Shown: positions 7,063 to 16,570 of the stretch, in pieces
How the letters are laid out: each line of letters begins with the position of its first letter
Position numbering within the stretch: the stretch's first letter is position 1
Position numbers and translations under genes: made by a program
Origin: Bradyrhizobium sp. G127
GTDB lineage: Bacteria; Pseudomonadota; Alphaproteobacteria; Rhizobiales; Xanthobacteraceae
NCBI RefSeq assembly: GCF_021502575.1
Contig: NZ_JAKFGN010000002.1
Span: 372,001 to 436,000 of the forward strand
Direction of reading: 5' to 3'
Length of the DNA: 64,000 nucleotides
Notes under the pieces: generated by a model
The model's input: only the letters and a program-made list of their open reading frames with translations
What the model was told of the DNA's origin: nothing
Databases searched by the model: none

Positions 7063-7830
7063 TCAGGAGCCAATGATGCCCTTGAGGCCCGCGTAGATCG
7101 AGCCCGCCGCAGTCGACAAAATGCCGGCCAGCGGACCGGCCGTCTTCATCAATTCCTGAATAATTCTCGCCCGGCGCCGCAACTGGTCCTCCCCGACATA
7201 GGGGCCCAGGATCTTCGCCACGCGATAGGCCGCCGCATTCGGCTTGTCACCCTGCGACAGCGAACTGGCAAGAAGCTGCAGCATCAAAATGCCGAGGATA
7301 TTACCGGTCACAAAGGCCAGCGCGATGCTCGCGGAGTATTCGAGCACCTCGCGCCATTCGATCCACGGTCCCGGAAGGATGGGAACATGGTCGTTGAAGC
7401 CGGTCACCGTCAGCATGCAGAATACGCTGAGCAGCGCTGTCAGGACTCCGACAATGGTTGCCCCGCGATATCCAACTTTCTGGATTGCGTAGATCGCAAA
7501 GCCGAACGGCAACGGAATCAGCACCGACGCAATGCGCAGATAGAGCGGCGACACGTTCAGCACGATGGTGACGATGATGTGGGCCGCAACCAGCAGGATC
7601 GTGGGGATCAGAATGTAGGCGATGCTGTGAACAGCGAAGGACCGGACCGGATGACGGCGGCGGTACAGTCGCGCGCTGACATTGTCGAACTCGCGCCTCA
7701 CCTTTTCGATGTCGGCGACGATGTCCTCAATTTCGAGAAGCACCGGCCGCACAACGCGGAGATCGCGCGAACAATGCTTGCAGACGAGCGCTTCGTCTTT
7801 CACCTTCTCGGCGCAGAACGGACATTCCAT
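7063..7830 (-). CDS. Zinc-ribbon membrane protein, unknown function
   Basis: A 255-aa protein I cannot place in a named family. It starts with a zinc ribbon (CPFC at residues 3-6, CKHC at 17-20, then SRD), has a short helical segment rich in charged residues (about 30-60), then four or so hydrophobic membrane spans (roughly 65-90, 95-115, 122-145, 165-190), and a basic amphipathic tail ending in a glycine-rich segment. It shares the ribbon and the SRD boundary with the next gene upstream, so the two probably arose from a common module. It is the last gene of a four-gene minus-strand set behind the CHAT protease. Confidence 0.75.
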   Translation of the reverse strand: MECPFCAEKVKDEALVCKHCSRDLRVVRPVLLEIEDIVADIEKVRREFDNVSARLYRRRHPVRSFAVHSIAYILIPTILLVAAHIIVTIVLNVSPLYLRIASVLIPLPFGFAIYAIQKVGYRGATIVGVLTALLSVFCMLTVTGFNDHVPILPGPWIEWREVLEYSASIALAFVTGNILGILMLQLLASSLSQGDKPNAAAYRVAKILGPYVGEDQLRRRARIIQELMKTAGPLAGILSTAAGSIYAGLKGIIGS

Positions 7831-7860
7831 CAGAATGCCGGTGCGTGTGGGGTGAACATG

Positions 7861-8076
7861 TCAGTTCCGCCGCAATGAGAGGCGCTGGCGGCGCCGAAGC
7901 GTTTCAAGTTCTGCCTTCGCATGCGCAAGTTCGTCCGTGGCCAAGGCCCGCTTGCGGATGAGATCGTCCCGCTCGGCAATCAGCGTTTCAGGAACCGTGA
8001 TATCGCGCGAACATGAGCTGCAAACCATTGCGCGGGGAGCGACGGGTTGCGTGCAGAAGGGGCACTCGTCCGTCAT
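7861..8076 (-). CDS. Small zinc-ribbon coiled-coil protein
   Basis: A 71-aa protein: zinc ribbon (CPFC at residues 5-8, CSSC at 19-22, SRD) followed by a charged helix (about 30-68) that should form a coiled coil and ends in arginines. No membrane segment or signal peptide. The ribbon is closely like that of the larger membrane protein 30 bases downstream. Its start is only five bases from the stop of the upstream secreted protein gene, so the genes are almost certainly one transcript. Function unknown. Confidence 0.72.
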   Translation of the reverse strand: MTDECPFCTQPVAPRAMVCSSCSRDITVPETLIAERDDLIRKRALATDELAHAKAELETLRRRQRLSLRRN

Positions 8077-8081
8077 GCGGG

Positions 8082-8537
8082 TCAGGGCGCCACTTTGAGT
8101 GTGAAGCTGGTGGTCGCGGTGCGGCCGTCGGAATCCTTCACATCGACGCGAATGAGGTGGTCGCCGGCGGGCAGTTCGGCGTCGGGCATATCGATGCCGG
8201 TGGGAACTACGAAGGGCTTCAGACGCGACGTCAGATCGACGGCGGGACTTTTTATATATGTCACCTTCAGTGAATCGGTGTCGATCTTGGCACCGCCAAA
8301 GGATTCGAATTTCAACTGCAGCCGCATCGGCGACCGCGCGGCGTCAGGACTGCCGACCAGTTCGATCTTCGGTCCGCGCGTGATGCCGCGGGTGGCGACA
8401 GCAACCCCGCCTTTCGGCGGCGGCAGCTTGGCCTCATCCGGAGAAATCAGAACCGTTCCCGCACTCGCACCGGGTGAAACCATCGACACAACAAGCCCGG
8501 CCGCCAAGCCAGCCGCCTGAAACAGCGAACGCCGCAT
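8082..8537 (-). CDS. Small secreted beta-rich protein, unknown function
   Basis: A 151-aa protein with an N-terminal signal peptide (MRRSLFQAAGLAAGLVV, cleavage likely near ASAG; the RR is only weakly Tat-like). The mature part looks all-beta, with a C-terminal pattern ELPAGDHLIRVDVKDSDGR and TTSFTLKV reminiscent of Ig-like or copper-resistance CopC-type domains, but I cannot assign a family. The ATG at 8537 has GGGGAG eight bases upstream. It lies between the CHAT protease and the zinc-ribbon genes. Confidence 0.72.
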   Translation of the reverse strand: MRRSLFQAAGLAAGLVVSMVSPGASAGTVLISPDEAKLPPPKGGVAVATRGITRGPKIELVGSPDAARSPMRLQLKFESFGGAKIDTDSLKVTYIKSPAVDLTSRLKPFVVPTGIDMPDAELPAGDHLIRVDVKDSDGRTATTSFTLKVAP

Positions 8538-8629
8538 TTCCAAATCTCCCCAACCGCCAAATCTCTTTCAAGCAATGCCGCGAGCCTACAGCACGGCGGG
8601 ATTTTTCGAAAGACGTCTCTCTTTTTACC

Positions 8630-11600
8630 TTAACGCCCGCCGCCGTCACCGATGATCGAATACGGCGCCCAGAACAGCGGATGCGCATAGGCGAACTCCG
8701 TCTTGCCGTCCGCGCCGAGATAGCCGGGTCCATCGGCGAGCGCCATCATGGCTTGCCGCAGCGCCTCGCCGCGCGTCAGCTTCGGATCGTCCGCCTGCCG
8801 CTTGAACAGGTCGGTCACCAGTTCACGCGCCGATTGCGAATGCACCGACCAGTTCGTGACCAGAAGCGCGCGCGTCCCGGCGTAGAAGAACGCCCGGCCC
8901 AGCCCCGACGCGGCTTCGGCTCCCGCTCCAGCCCCCGCGCCGGTGTTACAGGCCGACAGCACGACCCAGTCGGCGTCGAGCTTCAGCGAAAGGATTTCTT
9001 CCATTGTCAGCAACCCGTCGCCGTCGGAATCCGACAGCGCGGGTGCAGACAGCGCCAGCGCCGGTTGGGTCAAACCATCCAGTTCGCCCGGCACCAAACC
9101 ATGGGTGGCGAAGGCGACGATCTTGAACCCCGACAGGTCCATCGATTTCACCTTTTTCTCGTTGGCGTCCTTGCCGAGGTTGAGAACCTTGGCGGGATCG
9201 GCCTGCAAGGCGAGCGCGATGGAGGTGAGTTCGTCGGATGTGTCCGGCAGGCGCGGCAACTGTCCAAGTTGCGCGCTGTCGACGCCTTCAAGCTGCGGGC
9301 TGTTGCGCCGCTTCAGCGGGGCGCCACGCGTGACGTTCGACGCATCTGCGACCTGGATCAGCTTGTCGGCTTTCGCCGCGTCGTCGGCCTGCTCCTTGTT
9401 GAAATACGGATCGCCGAACGCGACCAGATCCTGCCGCGTGGCCTTGCCCGGGGGCAGCTTACGCAAGGTCTGCAGAGCTGACGCTGACGGCACCAGCGTC
9501 ACAGCATGGGTTCGCGCCAGCCACGGCACGTTGCGGTAACTGACGAACAGCGGATCGTCGTCGGCTTTCACCTCCGCAGCCGCCGTCGGCAGCAGCGACA
9601 ACGGCAACAGCCCGAGCGCGCCGTTGGTCACAACGATCAGGCTCTTCGCCGGCTTCCAGCCACTCTCGACGGGCTTCAGTATCTTGTCGTAAAGCTCGGA
9701 CGCGAGTTTTACGTCGAACGCGGGAATATCCGAAATCATCGCGGCTTTCGGCTCCAGCGCCTCGCGCAGCTTGGTCACGGTCGCATTGAGGTCGCCGACC
9801 GACAGTCCGAGCCGGGCGAACTGAACCGGGCTGTCCTTGCGCAGCACCCAGACGAAACTGTCAAAGCGGCCGAAGTAGAACGACAGCAACGCCTCGTCGT
9901 CCCTGAGCTGCTTCTGGATGTCAGCGGAATTCGGCGGCGGCGGGTTCACCAGATTGCCGTAGTCCGGAAACTTCTTCGCGATGTCCTTCAGCGTCTGCGC
10001 ACGCGATGCCTGTAACGCCGCGATCTCCGCCTGCGTCGCCTTGACCGCCTTCTCGTCGCGCTCCGCCGGCGGCAGCGTGAGCAGGTTGTTCAATGTCGCG
10101 ACGGCCGCGCCGATCCGCTTCTCGCCGTCCTGCGACGCACGCATCAGCTTCGCCAGTTCAGGATTGCTGGCGGCGGAACGAGCCGACGAAGCCTGCAGCG
10201 CACGCTGTACCGATTGCCCACGCATCACGTCTGCGTAGCCGAAGGTTTCATCGGCCACATTGGCGGGCGCAGCGGCGGGGAAGACCGATACAAATCGAAG
10301 ATACCCCTCGATCACGAAACGAACCCGTCCCTCCTGCGCAGCGGCGGTCGATCCGCTGTCGTCGTCGCTGCCGTTCGATGCGGTCAGCAGCACGGGGATC
10401 GCGGCCTTGAACTCCCGCAGCGCATCCTCCGGCCTGTTTTTGCGCGCAAGCGTCACGGCGTAGTAGCCGCGTGTCACGGCTGTGTTGACACTCTTGTCGC
10501 CCGATCTGCTGCGCTCCCGCTCGAAGGACCGCTGGGCGATTTCAAGCGCGTTGTCATAATTCTTCTGCGACAACAAAATCGACACGCGGGCCAGTCCGCC
10601 GCTCACCCCCTCGCGGCGCGACGGCTCCCACTTCGCCGTCCAGACATCGACTTGGTCGTAGAGCTTCGTCGCCTCGTCGTATTTACGTTCGAGATTCAGG
10701 ATTTGCGCGAGGAACACATTCGCCGAAACCATCTGACCGGACTCGGGCGTGTAGCCGAGCCCCTTGTAGATGTCGATGACCTGACGCTGAAGCTGCTCAG
10801 CCTCCTGGTAGCGGCCTTGTTCCTGAATGACATAGACCAGCACGCCAAGAACACCGGCCGTGTCGGCATGAAACTTCCCCGACTTGCTCAGACGGCTCAA
10901 CAGCGCGCGGCGCACATCCGCCTCGCCCTCGCCGACCCGGCCCTGCTTGACCTTGACGCGTCCTTCCAGCGCCAGCGCCCAGTCGGCGGAGCGCTCGATC
11001 TGCCCCTCCGGCGGTTTGCTTTCCCATTTCGAGAGCGTGGCGAGCGAATTTGTGTAAAAAACAGATGCCTTGTGATAGGCAGCCTCGGCATCGGCAAACC
11101 GGCCGCGGGCTTCCGCAACGCGCGCGTTGCCATCTTCGACGGTCGCCTGCCAGCTCATCCCGTAGATTGGAAACACCGGCCAGCGCTGCGCTTCTGCCAA
11201 TAGCGAGCGATTTCGCGCGGCGTAGCTCTCCGCGGTATTGGTATCGCCATTCCGGATATAACCGATCACCTGCAAGTACTGCAGAACGAACAGCCGGCCT
11301 TTTGCCTGATTGGCAAACGCCGCCGACTGCTTGGACAACAGCGCGTTGGCGCGCTTGTGCTGCCCCGCGTCGCGCAGGTGACGCATCAGGAGCGACTCGT
11401 AGCGGCTGCCTTCGTTCTTGTAGTCCCCGCCCTGTCCATTGCTGACGGCCAGTTCGGAATCCGCAAGCGCCTCCTCGGAACGGCCAAGCAGCGTGCGGGC
11501 CTGCGCCCGCTTGTAGTGGAAGTCCGCGAGAGCCGTACCTTTCAAACCGGCGGGCACCGGCGCGTCGGCCGCCGCCGTCAATTCGGCGATCTTCGCCGGG

Positions 11601-11992
11601 TCGGGTTTCTGCTGATCGAGAATGGCGGTGATGTCGGAGACCGTGCGCGGCGGCGCGACGAGCGTGGTGTTTTCCTTTGCGCGCTGGGCGCCTGCTGCGA
11701 TCTCGTCGGCCTTCGGCGCCGACACCTTCGCCGCGTCGAACAGCGCCGCCTTCGGGCGCGCGGCCATCATGGCATTGCGAACGCAAGGCGTTGCGGCGGC
11801 CTTGGCTCTCGCCATGCAGACTTCGTGCGGTCCACCGCTCTGCTTGCAGGCCATATAGGTCGGCCGGCCAATCGAATTGCGGCAGCTCTCTTGCGCTTGC
11901 GCGAGTTCAAGAGCGGAGGCTGGCGGAGCGGCTGCGAACGAGCAGAGCAAGCCGAGAAACGCCGCAACGCGGCTTCGTGCAGTTTTCGTCAT
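8630..11992 (-). CDS. Secreted TPR-CHAT domain cysteine protease
   Basis: An 1120-aa protein: signal peptide (about residues 1-26, ending ASA), a short segment with four cysteines (36, 48, 58, 69), a long alpha-helical region with TPR-type repeats (about 130-560), a linker, and a C-terminal CHAT domain (about 800-1120). CHAT is a caspase/separase-like clan CD peptidase; its dyad is visible as His964 (ATHG) and Cys1015 (LSACNTG), so the protease should be active. Between them DSDGDGLLTMEE (988-999) matches an EF-hand calcium loop. The start chosen has GGGAG six bases upstream and gives the signal peptide; the frame is open for 39 more codons. Substrate unknown; a TPR-CHAT layout is shared with the CRISPR-associated Craspase and gasdermin-activating proteases, but those are cytoplasmic. 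Confidence 0.88.
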   Translation of the reverse strand: MTKTARSRVAAFLGLLCSFAAAPPASALELAQAQESCRNSIGRPTYMACKQSGGPHEVCMARAKAAATPCVRNAMMAARPKAALFDAAKVSAPKADEIAAGAQRAKENTTLVAPPRTVSDITAILDQQKPDPAKIAELTAAADAPVPAGLKGTALADFHYKRAQARTLLGRSEEALADSELAVSNGQGGDYKNEGSRYESLLMRHLRDAGQHKRANALLSKQSAAFANQAKGRLFVLQYLQVIGYIRNGDTNTAESYAARNRSLLAEAQRWPVFPIYGMSWQATVEDGNARVAEARGRFADAEAAYHKASVFYTNSLATLSKWESKPPEGQIERSADWALALEGRVKVKQGRVGEGEADVRRALLSRLSKSGKFHADTAGVLGVLVYVIQEQGRYQEAEQLQRQVIDIYKGLGYTPESGQMVSANVFLAQILNLERKYDEATKLYDQVDVWTAKWEPSRREGVSGGLARVSILLSQKNYDNALEIAQRSFERERSRSGDKSVNTAVTRGYYAVTLARKNRPEDALREFKAAIPVLLTASNGSDDDSGSTAAAQEGRVRFVIEGYLRFVSVFPAAAPANVADETFGYADVMRGQSVQRALQASSARSAASNPELAKLMRASQDGEKRIGAAVATLNNLLTLPPAERDEKAVKATQAEIAALQASRAQTLKDIAKKFPDYGNLVNPPPPNSADIQKQLRDDEALLSFYFGRFDSFVWVLRKDSPVQFARLGLSVGDLNATVTKLREALEPKAAMISDIPAFDVKLASELYDKILKPVESGWKPAKSLIVVTNGALGLLPLSLLPTAAAEVKADDDPLFVSYRNVPWLARTHAVTLVPSASALQTLRKLPPGKATRQDLVAFGDPYFNKEQADDAAKADKLIQVADASNVTRGAPLKRRNSPQLEGVDSAQLGQLPRLPDTSDELTSIALALQADPAKVLNLGKDANEKKVKSMDLSGFKIVAFATHGLVPGELDGLTQPALALSAPALSDSDGDGLLTMEEILSLKLDADWVVLSACNTGAGAGAGAEAASGLGRAFFYAGTRALLVTNWSVHSQSARELVTDLFKRQADDPKLTRGEALRQAMMALADGPGYLGADGKTEFAYAHPLFWAPYSIIGDGGGR

Positions 11993-12204
11993 GGCGCGCT
12001 CCCGGACATTGTCATTCCCACCGAAAATGCGGTGTGTCCGGGATGAAATTGGATGCCGTTCAAACATACGGAACTGAAAATAACGACGGGTCCAACGGTC
12101 CCGGATCAATAGGTATTATTAGGAGCAAAGACCGGCACAGGGTCAAGCGCGGCGCAGGATGGAACTCAAAAGTATTTTGCAATCACCCGAACAGGTGATG
12201 CGCT

Positions 12205-12240
12205 CAAACAAAAAGCGGACGCCGGAAAGGCGTCCGCTTC
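12205..12240 (-). terminator. Rho-independent terminator of clpP
   Basis: On the minus strand AGCGGACGCC-TTTCC-GGCGTCCGCT is followed by TTTTGTTTG, 30 bases beyond the clpP stop. It separates clpP from the CHAT cassette. Confidence 0.92.
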
Positions 12241-12268
12241 AATTTTCACAATCAGACCGCGATCCGGC

Positions 12269-14956: not shown

Positions 14957-16264
14957 ATGACAAATCAGGTTTTTTCGCCGTCGAGACGGGGTCTGCTGGC
15001 CGGGCTGGGAGGGACCGCTCTCACTGCCGGGCTGCGGCTGCCCGCCGCCGCGCAGTCCGGAGCAAGCCTGTCCCTGCGGGCGCGGCCCGGAACGATCCCC
15101 CTTCAGGCCGGAGGAACCGGACAGGCGGTCTGGATGCTCGATACGGATCAGGCGGGTGCCCTGCGGTTCGGCAAAGGCGATCTCGCCGTCAACCTTTCAA
15201 ATGAACTCCCCGCACCTATCGTCCTGAACTGGCTTGGAATCGACGGCGCAGCCGCCGCGGAGCCGCTGACCGGACAGGCTCCGGTCCTACCCGGTGGACG
15301 GGCGTCCTTCACCGTGCCCCTGCGGCAATCCGGAACCTATCTGGTCAACGCGCTGGTGCCGGAAGGCGCGCCCCCTCCGACGGCAGGCCGTGCGCTCATC
15401 GTCGAGGACAGCCCGCCGGTCGCCGTGGACCGCGACGCGGTTCTGCTGATCGAGGAATGGCGGTTCAAATCGGGTGTGGCGGTTGCTCCCGGAACCGCTC
15501 CCGACGCCACGCCCGCAATCTACACCGTCAACGGACAGTTGAACTTCAGCCTCAACGTGAAGATCAACGAGCGGCTGCGGCTGCGCTTCATCAACGGCTG
15601 CGCGCGGTCGCCGGTCGGATTGAAAATCGAGAATCACGACGTTCGCGTGATGGCAATCGACGGCGCACCCGCCGAACCTTTCACCGCCCGCGACGGCCAA
15701 CTGGTGCTAGCGCCCGGTTCGCGCGTCGATGCTTTCATCGACGCGACGCGGGCGCCGGGCACCATCTCGCCGATTATCCTGCATGACGGCGCCTCACCAC
15801 AAACCATCGCGCGGCTGATCATGTCGAACGACGCGCCCGTGCGGGCGGCGGCGCTGCCGCTGTCGGCTGCGCTTCCCTCGGTCGGCCTTCCCGCGCGTCT
15901 CGACCTGCAAGGCGCGCTGCGCGCCGAACTGTCGCTCGATCCGAACGCGCAATGGGGGTCGCCTGTGAAATTCGACGCCGCGACCGCGCCGGCCTGGCGC
16001 GTCAAGCGCGGACGCACCGCGGTGATGGCGATCACCAATCCGGCCACAGCGCCGGTGGTGTTCCGGCTGCACGGTCATCATTTCCGGCTGCTCGACCGGC
16101 TCGACGACGGCTGGAAACCGTTCTGGCTCGACACGCTGATGCTGGACAAGGGCCAGACCCAGCGCATCGCGTTCCTCGCGGAATATTCCGGACGCTGGCT
16201 GATGGAAGCCACCGCACTCAACTGGGCCGCACCGAAACTGTTACGCAGTTACGCGGTGGAATAG
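14957..16264 (+). CDS. Tat-exported multicopper-oxidase-fold protein lacking most copper ligands
   Basis: A 435-aa cupredoxin-repeat protein. The N-terminus is a Tat signal (SRRGLLAGLGG, twin arginines at 10-11), so a folded protein is exported to the periplasm. The family's four copper motifs are largely lost: the HWHG motif reads NWLG (91-94), the second His pair is absent, one RLHGHHF motif (370-376) remains, and the final HCH-type motif is replaced by YSGRWLMEA. That resembles FtsP/SufI, a multicopper-oxidase homologue without copper that stabilises the divisome, more than an oxidase such as CueO. Oxidase activity is unlikely. It starts about 190 bases from the divergent tRNA-Leu. Confidence 0.82.
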   Translation: MTNQVFSPSRRGLLAGLGGTALTAGLRLPAAAQSGASLSLRARPGTIPLQAGGTGQAVWMLDTDQAGALRFGKGDLAVNLSNELPAPIVLNWLGIDGAAAAEPLTGQAPVLPGGRASFTVPLRQSGTYLVNALVPEGAPPPTAGRALIVEDSPPVAVDRDAVLLIEEWRFKSGVAVAPGTAPDATPAIYTVNGQLNFSLNVKINERLRLRFINGCARSPVGLKIENHDVRVMAIDGAPAEPFTARDGQLVLAPGSRVDAFIDATRAPGTISPIILHDGASPQTIARLIMSNDAPVRAAALPLSAALPSVGLPARLDLQGALRAELSLDPNAQWGSPVKFDAATAPAWRVKRGRTAVMAITNPATAPVVFRLHGHHFRLLDRLDDGWKPFWLDTLMLDKGQTQRIAFLAEYSGRWLMEATALNWAAPKLLRSYAVE

Positions 16265-16270
16265 CGCAGC

Positions 16271-16570
16271 CTAGGCGGGCGACGGCAGCCCATGAACCAG
16301 CAGGCCGAGGGTATCCGCACCGGCGATGCGGTCCTTGGAAATCTCACGATAGCCGGGCGAATCCAGAAAGCCCCTCGCCCGTGCCTCGTCGGCGAACGAC
16401 ATCACAACGATCTTGTCACGTTCCCAGTCGCCATCGAGAACGACAGGCTTTTCGTCGGCGGCCAGCAACCTGCCGCCGGACTCCTTGAACACGTCGAAGA
16501 ACCTCGCCTGATACTTGCGATAGCGTTCCGCGTCGGTGAACTTCAACTGGGCGATCACGTAAACCGTCAT
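16271..16570 (-). CDS. DUF1330 family protein
   Basis: A 99-aa protein with the small dimeric alpha/beta-barrel look of DUF1330: MTVYVIAQLKFTD, then GGRLLAADEKPVVLDGDW and IVVMSFADEARARGFLDSP. Members are of unknown function. The ATG at 16570 has GGGGAGAGGA immediately upstream; a longer open frame exists but the ribosome site decides the start. It is convergent with the preceding oxidase-fold gene, six bases away. Confidence 0.85.
   Translation of the reverse strand: MTVYVIAQLKFTDAERYRKYQARFFDVFKESGGRLLAADEKPVVLDGDWERDKIVVMSFADEARARGFLDSPGYREISKDRIAGADTLGLLVHGLPSPA

Follow-up and report, generated by a model that had tools for sequence, protein, structure and literature searches.

Within a 64,000-nucleotide stretch of the Bradyrhizobium sp. 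G127 genome (contig NZ_JAKFGN010000002.1, positions 372,001 to 436,000; hereafter the window), four genes stand between clpP and clpX and encode, in order of transcription, a secreted TPR-CHAT putative protease (CHAT), a small secreted immunoglobulin (Ig)-like protein (beta), a short protein with a zinc ribbon and a coiled coil (ZR1), and a zinc-ribbon membrane protein (ZR2). We find that these genes belong to a real and recurrent module that is, as far as we have searched, undescribed. In this module beta and the membrane protein form a near-constant pair, and both the secreted protease and the cytosolic head of the membrane protein are exchanged for other domains. Because relatives swap the outer protease or carry a TIR domain as the inner head, the set looks like a device for signalling across the envelope. 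We tentatively read the four genes as one version of a modular envelope cassette that relays from outside to inside, and give this reading slightly less than an even chance.

A scan of genome contigs with a beta profile yielded 87 loci, of which the best 80 were analysed as named loci; beta is present at all 80 by construction. CHAT, beta, ZR1 and ZR2 are complete and in the same order at 74 of these 80 (L062-L135; the exceptions are L136-L141), 16 with clpP or clpX in the stretch examined and 58 without, a separation that a preliminary description of this DNA had proposed to look for. With 58 of the 80 named sets lacking them in the stretch examined, clpP and clpX are rejected as functional partners, and the position of the window set beside them looks incidental. 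The locus counts are not independent, because most named loci come from Bradyrhizobium and Afipia (the named relatives nearest to the window are Afipia), and relatedness inflates the co-occurrence, Fisher and distance-correlation figures given here. Such shared ancestry would suit a neighbourhood without function, in which four unrelated genes travel together by descent, but this explanation is largely refuted and very improbable: the sets occupy several unrelated genomic places, all four genes are under purifying selection, beta recurs with a zinc-ribbon membrane protein and a caspase in another class, and protease and head have been swapped independently, as set out below.

Whole genomes allow the constancy of each gene to be compared. 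Across 149 genomes of the window's family, a close CHAT (over 500 bits) occurs in 20, beta in 25 and the membrane protein in 24, the last always in a genome with beta (24/24; Fisher 7.7e-27); beta is found in 18 of the 20 close-CHAT genomes versus 7 of the 129 others (Fisher 1.2e-15). Pairwise distances over 73 loci correlate with r 0.956 for beta and the membrane protein, 0.873 for CHAT and beta, and 0.847 for CHAT and the membrane protein. At the 28 family beta places, CHAT adjoins beta 16 times and is missing beside it 12 times. The near-constant core within the family is beta plus the four-helix membrane protein, not CHAT, and the four genes are not constant together in all relatives. One genome of the window's genus (G106) carries a full set elsewhere and, at clpP/clpX, a decayed set of beta and a broken ZR2 without CHAT; sets therefore get lost and relocated.

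In the window the four genes are intact, co-directional on the minus strand and closely spaced (gaps of 92, 5 and 30 bases, translation table 11). Ka/Ks against four relatives is low throughout (CHAT 0.116-0.137, beta 0.083-0.193, ZR1 0.133-0.196, ZR2 0.066-0.106), and all four genes are under purifying selection. Together with the 74 complete sets, these values answer the two doubts raised in the preliminary description, that the genes might not co-occur elsewhere or might be a random insertion with broken homologues; the latter is ruled out because Ka/Ks is low for all four genes. The same description took clpP and clpX to be normally close neighbours, and this holds in 10/10 genomes selected because the set is absent at that place, three from the window's genus and seven from elsewhere in the family: the ends of the clpP and clpX matches lie 377-495 bases apart, and the gap contains nothing that matches CHAT, beta or ZR at E 1. 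Its view of the set as a unit of its own, parted from clpP by a strong terminator, agrees with what we see: the 74-base stretch 12195-12268 folds at -34.1 kcal/mol (z -4.46), and its 12-pair stem is kept in 8/8 aligned upstream regions (by eye). Following the terminator is a candidate promoter-like element, with TTGACC in 8/8 and CTAAT in 7/8 rows of the upstream alignment by eye; a consensus promoter scan of the upstream region did not report TTGACC-17-CCTAAT.

The first gene product is, by its sequence, a CHAT-family member with a His-Cys dyad and a putative protease. The CHAT domain (Pfam PF12770) matches at E 1.9e-47 and 162.5 bits against a curated cut-off of 24, TPR_12 matches at E 1.5e-17, and the catalytic pair His964 and Cys1015, described from the start as intact, is invariant in 23/23 rows of one alignment (A4) and 26/26 of another (A6). 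On inspection by eye, the window protein, like many of its relatives, has a signal-peptide-like start, and so has beta, which agrees with the earlier view that both proteins are secreted. The N-terminal region is modelled as a hairpin of two helices (residues 30-51 and 56-78; pLDDT 82-89 over residues 31-70 and 69 over 71-80) that carries four cysteines; besides these and the catalytic Cys1015, the protein has just Cys17, in the signal-peptide region. A sequence search of solved structures with CHAT returned TPR proteins, chiefly kinesin light chain. The protein scores 32.6 bits against the cut-off of 300 for the TPR protein of the FxSxx-COOH system (NCBIfam NF040586) and falls outside that family, and a Thionin match of its N-terminus (E 0.024) is taken as chance.

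Two subtypes of CHAT stand before the same beta and ZR genes: both occur in tandem in L065 and L130, and the other subtype in L071. CHAT has an internal stop in L074 and is split over two frames in L078, and the partner genes there read through. Between CHAT and beta, three loci hold a secreted-looking double four-cysteine module (plus strand; L076:4776-5351, L079:6349-6924, L080:6327-6905).

The exchange of the protease is seen at the loci where CHAT is missing. A caspase of the Peptidase_C14 family (C14) stands beside beta or the membrane protein in six genomes, five of which have both members of the pair. Four are among the 12 CHAT-less family places (L144, L145 with two copies, L146 and L153; E 1.1e-33 to 1.6e-38), L153 being the one with beta and no membrane gene. 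The fifth is in another family of the class (L166, E 9.6e-37), where it is the genome's sole C14 match, and the sixth in another class of the phylum, where beta, a zinc-ribbon membrane protein, a C14-DUF4384 protein (E 6.5e-17), an OmpA gene and a second beta follow one another on one strand (L225). CHAT and C14 exclude each other at beta loci: tblastn places C14 at 0 of the 74 complete CHAT loci versus 6 of the 15 CHAT-less loci (L138, L142-L153, L166 and L225; one-sided Fisher 8.6e-6). Six family genomes in which C14 matches were counted hold 2 to 17 each; under a simple gene-count model built on these counts and taking the highest per-locus chance of the six, C14 at 5 of 14 CHAT-less loci (the 12 family places, L166 and L138) has p 1e-6. 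Both comparisons were made after the cases had been seen and are uncorrected for relatedness. The dyad His and Cys are present in the caspases inspected (L225 by eye), and the C14 proteins bear either weak PG_binding_1 matches below the cut-off or Sel1 repeats. In L146 the caspase combines a CHAT-type N-terminal four-cysteine module (hmmsearch i-E 3.1e-18) with TPRs, in effect a catalytic-domain swap, and is transcribed away from beta-ZR1-ZR2. The window locus has CHAT as its protease and no adjacent Peptidase_C14; its genome has one CHAT match in all and two Peptidase_C14 matches, both away from the window locus.

At more distant beta loci, a C14 match lies near beta in L167, L169 and L171, with a weak one in L170 (E 6e-8, about 5 kb off), and a trypsin-like gene lies near beta in L172. 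In L167 (L167:12078-16195, plus strand) a trypsin-Peptidase_C14-DUF4384 fusion, with an OmpA gene before it and a serpin gene after it, is divergent from the distant beta gene; L169 and L171 are arranged alike (by eye, with C14 by tblastn). This arrangement is perhaps like the protease/protease-inhibition operon of four Rhizobium strains (PMC3501461, available text).

The second exchange concerns the membrane protein. ZR2 consists of an N-terminal zinc ribbon and coiled coil, then, as we interpret a hydropathy scan, four membrane helices (best segments 73-91, 98-116, 124-142 and 169-187). A conserved loop, D-x-V-P-x-x-P...E-W-x-E-x-x-E-Y, lies between helices 3 and 4 and, by positive-inside reasoning, would be outside if the N-terminal ribbon is inside. 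The zinc ribbons proposed for ZR1 and ZR2 give Pfam matches below the cut-offs, and their four cysteines are invariant in 13/13 and 15/15 rows, respectively, in keeping with the earlier assignment. By eye we see neither a membrane segment nor a signal peptide in ZR1, which is probably the coiled-coil partner of the zinc-ribbon head; its PADLOC match to LmuB (E 2.4e-4) is taken as chance. At three loci a TIR_2 domain replaces the zinc ribbon (L150, E 4e-10; L052, 8.5e-11; L149, 3.6e-10). These TIR-headed proteins still match the family profile of the membrane protein (1.1e-24, 2.4e-22 and 1.8e-28 for L150, L052 and L149), and their helices and outer loop remain alignable with those of the zinc-ribbon versions. 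L052 adjoins CHAT. For the TIR of L150 there is an alignment to SARM1 (E 5e-4) that covers the glutamate of HKEIVTAL, a residue we take to be the catalytic Glu. No TIR match is present in the window's four proteins.

Two structural observations accompany the membrane protein. By eye, the four-helix part in L149:1790-2683 (plus strand) is inserted within the TIR domain, the TIR sequence resuming after the last helix. In G106 three extra copies of the 3' end of ZR2 lie downstream of the intact gene (L037:13311-13433 and 16248-16349, plus strand; G106:C1:5094357-5094479), a pattern that an element inserting at this gene end, or copying it, might leave; no integrase is found among the three neighbouring genes checked.

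The other member of the pair, beta, is predicted to fold as a generic Ig-like beta-sandwich. Foldseek gives CopC as the top match (E 5.8e-4) and PKD domains next, the VIA Z is at most 7.5 against the 7 to 8 typical of models that have no clear match, and the best sequence match among solved structures (E 0.0041) spans 30 positions. An HYR match (E 0.07) is taken as chance. Neither beta nor the four-helix membrane protein has a Pfam or NCBIfam family above cut-off. A D-x-T-x-R motif is invariant in 23/23 diverse aligned beta sequences, the window's among them, and is therefore the prime candidate for a docking or cleavage site; orthocaspases cleave after basic residues (PMC6426788, available text).

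The cassette as we read it has two exchangeable parts. Outside stands a secreted clan-CD cysteine protease (TPR-CHAT in the window, a Peptidase_C14 caspase elsewhere), and inside the membrane protein presents its head (in the window a zinc ribbon, with ZR1; TIR elsewhere). In the oxidising periplasm the protease would be restrained by a disulfide hairpin and the TPR superhelix, and the caspase versions instead by peptidoglycan (PG)-binding, Sel1 or OmpA-type parts. A signal from the envelope would release the protease, which may then cut or bind beta, perhaps at its D-x-T-x-R motif; beta would in turn act on the membrane protein at its conserved outer loop, and inside the cell the zinc-ribbon head might change partners or the TIR head its enzyme activity. 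We favour the envelope as the source of the signal because of the links to the cell wall, namely the weak PG-binding matches, the Sel1 repeats, the OmpA genes and a lytic transglycosylase after one solo CHAT. In a more specific form, which we regard as doubtful though worth stating, the module would be a transmembrane receptor: caspase-family proteolysis outside the inner membrane would act via an Ig-like secreted partner to switch either a TIR enzyme or a zinc-ribbon adaptor in the cytosol. Such a receptor, with its swappable proteases and heads, would be a counterpart of innate immune signalling that works in the periplasm and starts from a caspase. The preliminary description had pictured an envelope protease with a secreted partner and a module that might sense or relay damage. 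The sensing or relaying role fits, because inner head and outer protease are both swapped; CHAT as the fixed core does not, being absent at those 12 of 28 beta places.

Several observations weigh against a relay of this kind. TIR heads occur at three loci in two genomes, out of 24 family genomes with the membrane protein, and two of the loci, L149 and L150, both of one genome (G117), lie on short contigs in which neither CHAT nor C14 is matched. Neither CHAT nor C14 is found in the stretch examined at 8 of the 12 CHAT-less family beta places (L142, L143 and L147-L152), nor at L138, and the protease may therefore act in trans or be dispensable. Among the distant loci, L168 and L172 have no C14 near beta, and L168 has no CHAT either (tblastn). 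Genes of the CHAT clade stand solo, with the pair absent, at six of the places examined (L043, L045, L046, L048, L049 and L050), beta lacks a membrane gene in L151 and L153, and three genomes of the window's genus lack CHAT, beta and the membrane protein. Outside the family the module is rare: in scans that scored a few first-look candidates per genome, beta was found in 10 of 385 class genomes (two in the family, eight beyond it) and in 12 of 398 phylum genomes (ten in the family, with only G191 and G732 beyond it), and the membrane protein has no match at E 1e-4 in 6 of the 8 class-level beta genomes beyond the family (G230, G345, G438, G207, G252 and G272). A single obligate machine is hard to square with CHAT genes that stand alone, pairs that lack a protease and so narrow a spread beyond the family. 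In the CHAT model, moreover, the catalytic part is poor, with pLDDT below 50 over much of residues 858-1030.

The same loci bear on a simpler explanation, envelope proteolysis without signalling, in which the CHAT or caspase protein would mature or degrade envelope proteins, beta would serve as adaptor, chaperone or inhibitor, and ZR2 would be an inner-membrane anchor or assembly factor. Proteases recur near beta even where no membrane gene was found (L167, L169, L171, L153, the trypsin-like gene of L172 and, more weakly, L170), a lytic transglycosylase follows one solo CHAT (L045), and the C14 proteins carry the PG_binding_1 matches and Sel1 repeats noted above. This explanation leaves unexplained, however, why the cytosolic head gives way to TIR in proteins that preserve the helices and outer loop, and why a separate soluble zinc-ribbon partner, ZR1, is under selection. 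We consider it unlikely, if still a reading to be reckoned with. The transglycosylase gene itself (SLT_2, PG_binding_1; L045:11399-12592, plus strand) begins 47 bases after CHAT.

Another alternative is an anti-phage or other conflict system, in which a periplasmic protease would sense phage entry or envelope attack and a cytosolic TIR or zinc-ribbon effector would halt growth. Conflict systems count caspase and TIR among their parts (PMC7159879, available text), as Craspase does CHAT (PMC9729208, available text), and the patchy presence, loss and relocation of the module (the decayed and full sets of G106; beta in 25/149 family genomes) are what such a system might show. Against this, PADLOC on the four proteins returned just a stretch of ZR1 zinc ribbon and coiled coil (LmuB, E 2.4e-4 and 0.016) and a stretch of CHAT (BovA, E 0.086); the neighbours inspected are clpP, clpX, lon, tig, CoA transferase and, by eye, tgt/queA, no defence-gene scan of the whole neighbourhood having been made; and the scarcity of TIR heads tells here as well. 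We judge a conflict role quite unlikely.

No description of the module was found in openly licensed literature, which agrees with the statement in the preliminary description that no system of this composition was known. Among the closest known systems is Craspase of type III-E CRISPR, also a TPR-CHAT protein with a His-Cys dyad working with partner genes; its dyad is H585/C627, and its substrate Csx30 is bound to RpoE (PMC9729208, available text). Unlike Craspase, the window protease has a signal-peptide-like start (by eye) and a four-cysteine hairpin, and the set joins it to a secreted Ig-like protein and to zinc-ribbon proteins. The RAMP family (the gRAMP/Cas7-11 partner) is matched in 0/1 in the window's own genome versus 4 of 14 control genomes; the window set is not a Craspase, though partly similar in working. 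Foldseek of the CHAT model lists human separase among the best matches and yeast separase lower. Separase, a eukaryotic protein, likewise has helical repeats followed by a caspase-like domain, a resemblance that should be read with a partly low-confidence model and rmsd values of 13 to 32. As to gasdermin-like pore proteins, Pfam, NCBIfam and PADLOC gave none among the matches of the three partner proteins, and no fold search was aimed at gasdermins.

Alphaproteobacteria are rich in metacaspases, of which some may have signal peptides or parts that bind peptidoglycan, and operons with OmpA or protease inhibition have been reported for them (Asplund-Samuelsson et al. 2012, PMC3501461, available text). 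The OmpA and protease-inhibition genes near beta in L167 and OmpA in L225 are alike in this respect, but the available text of that paper describes no Ig-like protein paired with a zinc-ribbon or TIR membrane protein and no exchange of CHAT for caspase. In NTP-dependent conflict systems (Kaur et al. 2020, PMC7159879, available text) caspase and trypsin parts are mutually exclusive in fixed gene sets, TIR is among the effectors, and some parts have zinc ribbons, membrane helices or OmpA; the main text of that paper, as far as available, does not mention CHAT. The window's four genes differ in showing no NTPase family (Pfam), and the module's proteases have signal-peptide-like starts.

To our knowledge the roles of secreted caspase-type proteins are mostly open, and a near-constant pair with an exchangeable protease and inner head offers a concrete handle on them. 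Were the relay to prove true, it would mean a connection from caspase to TIR, or from caspase to zinc ribbon, across a bacterial membrane. Caspase-type proteins are plentiful in rhizobia and their relatives, as the 2 to 17 C14 matches per counted family genome show, and they are also described as abundant in Alphaproteobacteria (PMC3501461, available text).

Table 1. Features of the four-gene locus and its flanks, in window positions.
Feature	Position	Strand	Basis or remark
clpP	12901-12269	-	upstream flank of the four-gene set
Intrinsic terminator of clpP, parting the set from clpP	12212..12240	-	12-pair stem and T run
Candidate promoter-like element TTGACC-17-CCTAAT, upstream of the CHAT gene	12118..12146	-	by eye
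Gene of the putative secreted TPR-CHAT clan-CD cysteine protease, 1120 aa	8630..11992	-	Pfam, orthologues
CHAT N-terminal four-cysteine helical hairpin, residues 30-78 (Cys 37, 49, 59, 70)	11759..11905	-	
Catalytic His964 codon (putative)	9101..9103	-	invariant in alignments
Catalytic Cys1015 codon (putative)	8948..8950	-	invariant in alignments
beta gene (small secreted Ig-like protein), 151 aa from ATG	8082..8537	-	open reading frame, predicted beta-sandwich
beta, alternative TTG start, 153 aa	8543		
ZR1 gene (zinc ribbon and coiled coil), 71 aa	7861..8076	-	
ZR2 gene (zinc-ribbon membrane protein), 255 aa	7063..7830	-	
clpX	6713-5445	-	downstream flank

Beyond the clpP/clpX position, beta recurs at a second site, beside tgt/queA (named by eye), with the membrane protein in L142 (8341-11162) and L148 and without it in L151; these sites have no CHAT or C14 nearby. 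In one Bradyrhizobium group, ZR2 is followed by genes for two CoA transferase proteins and an acetyltransferase, which are taken as bystanders.

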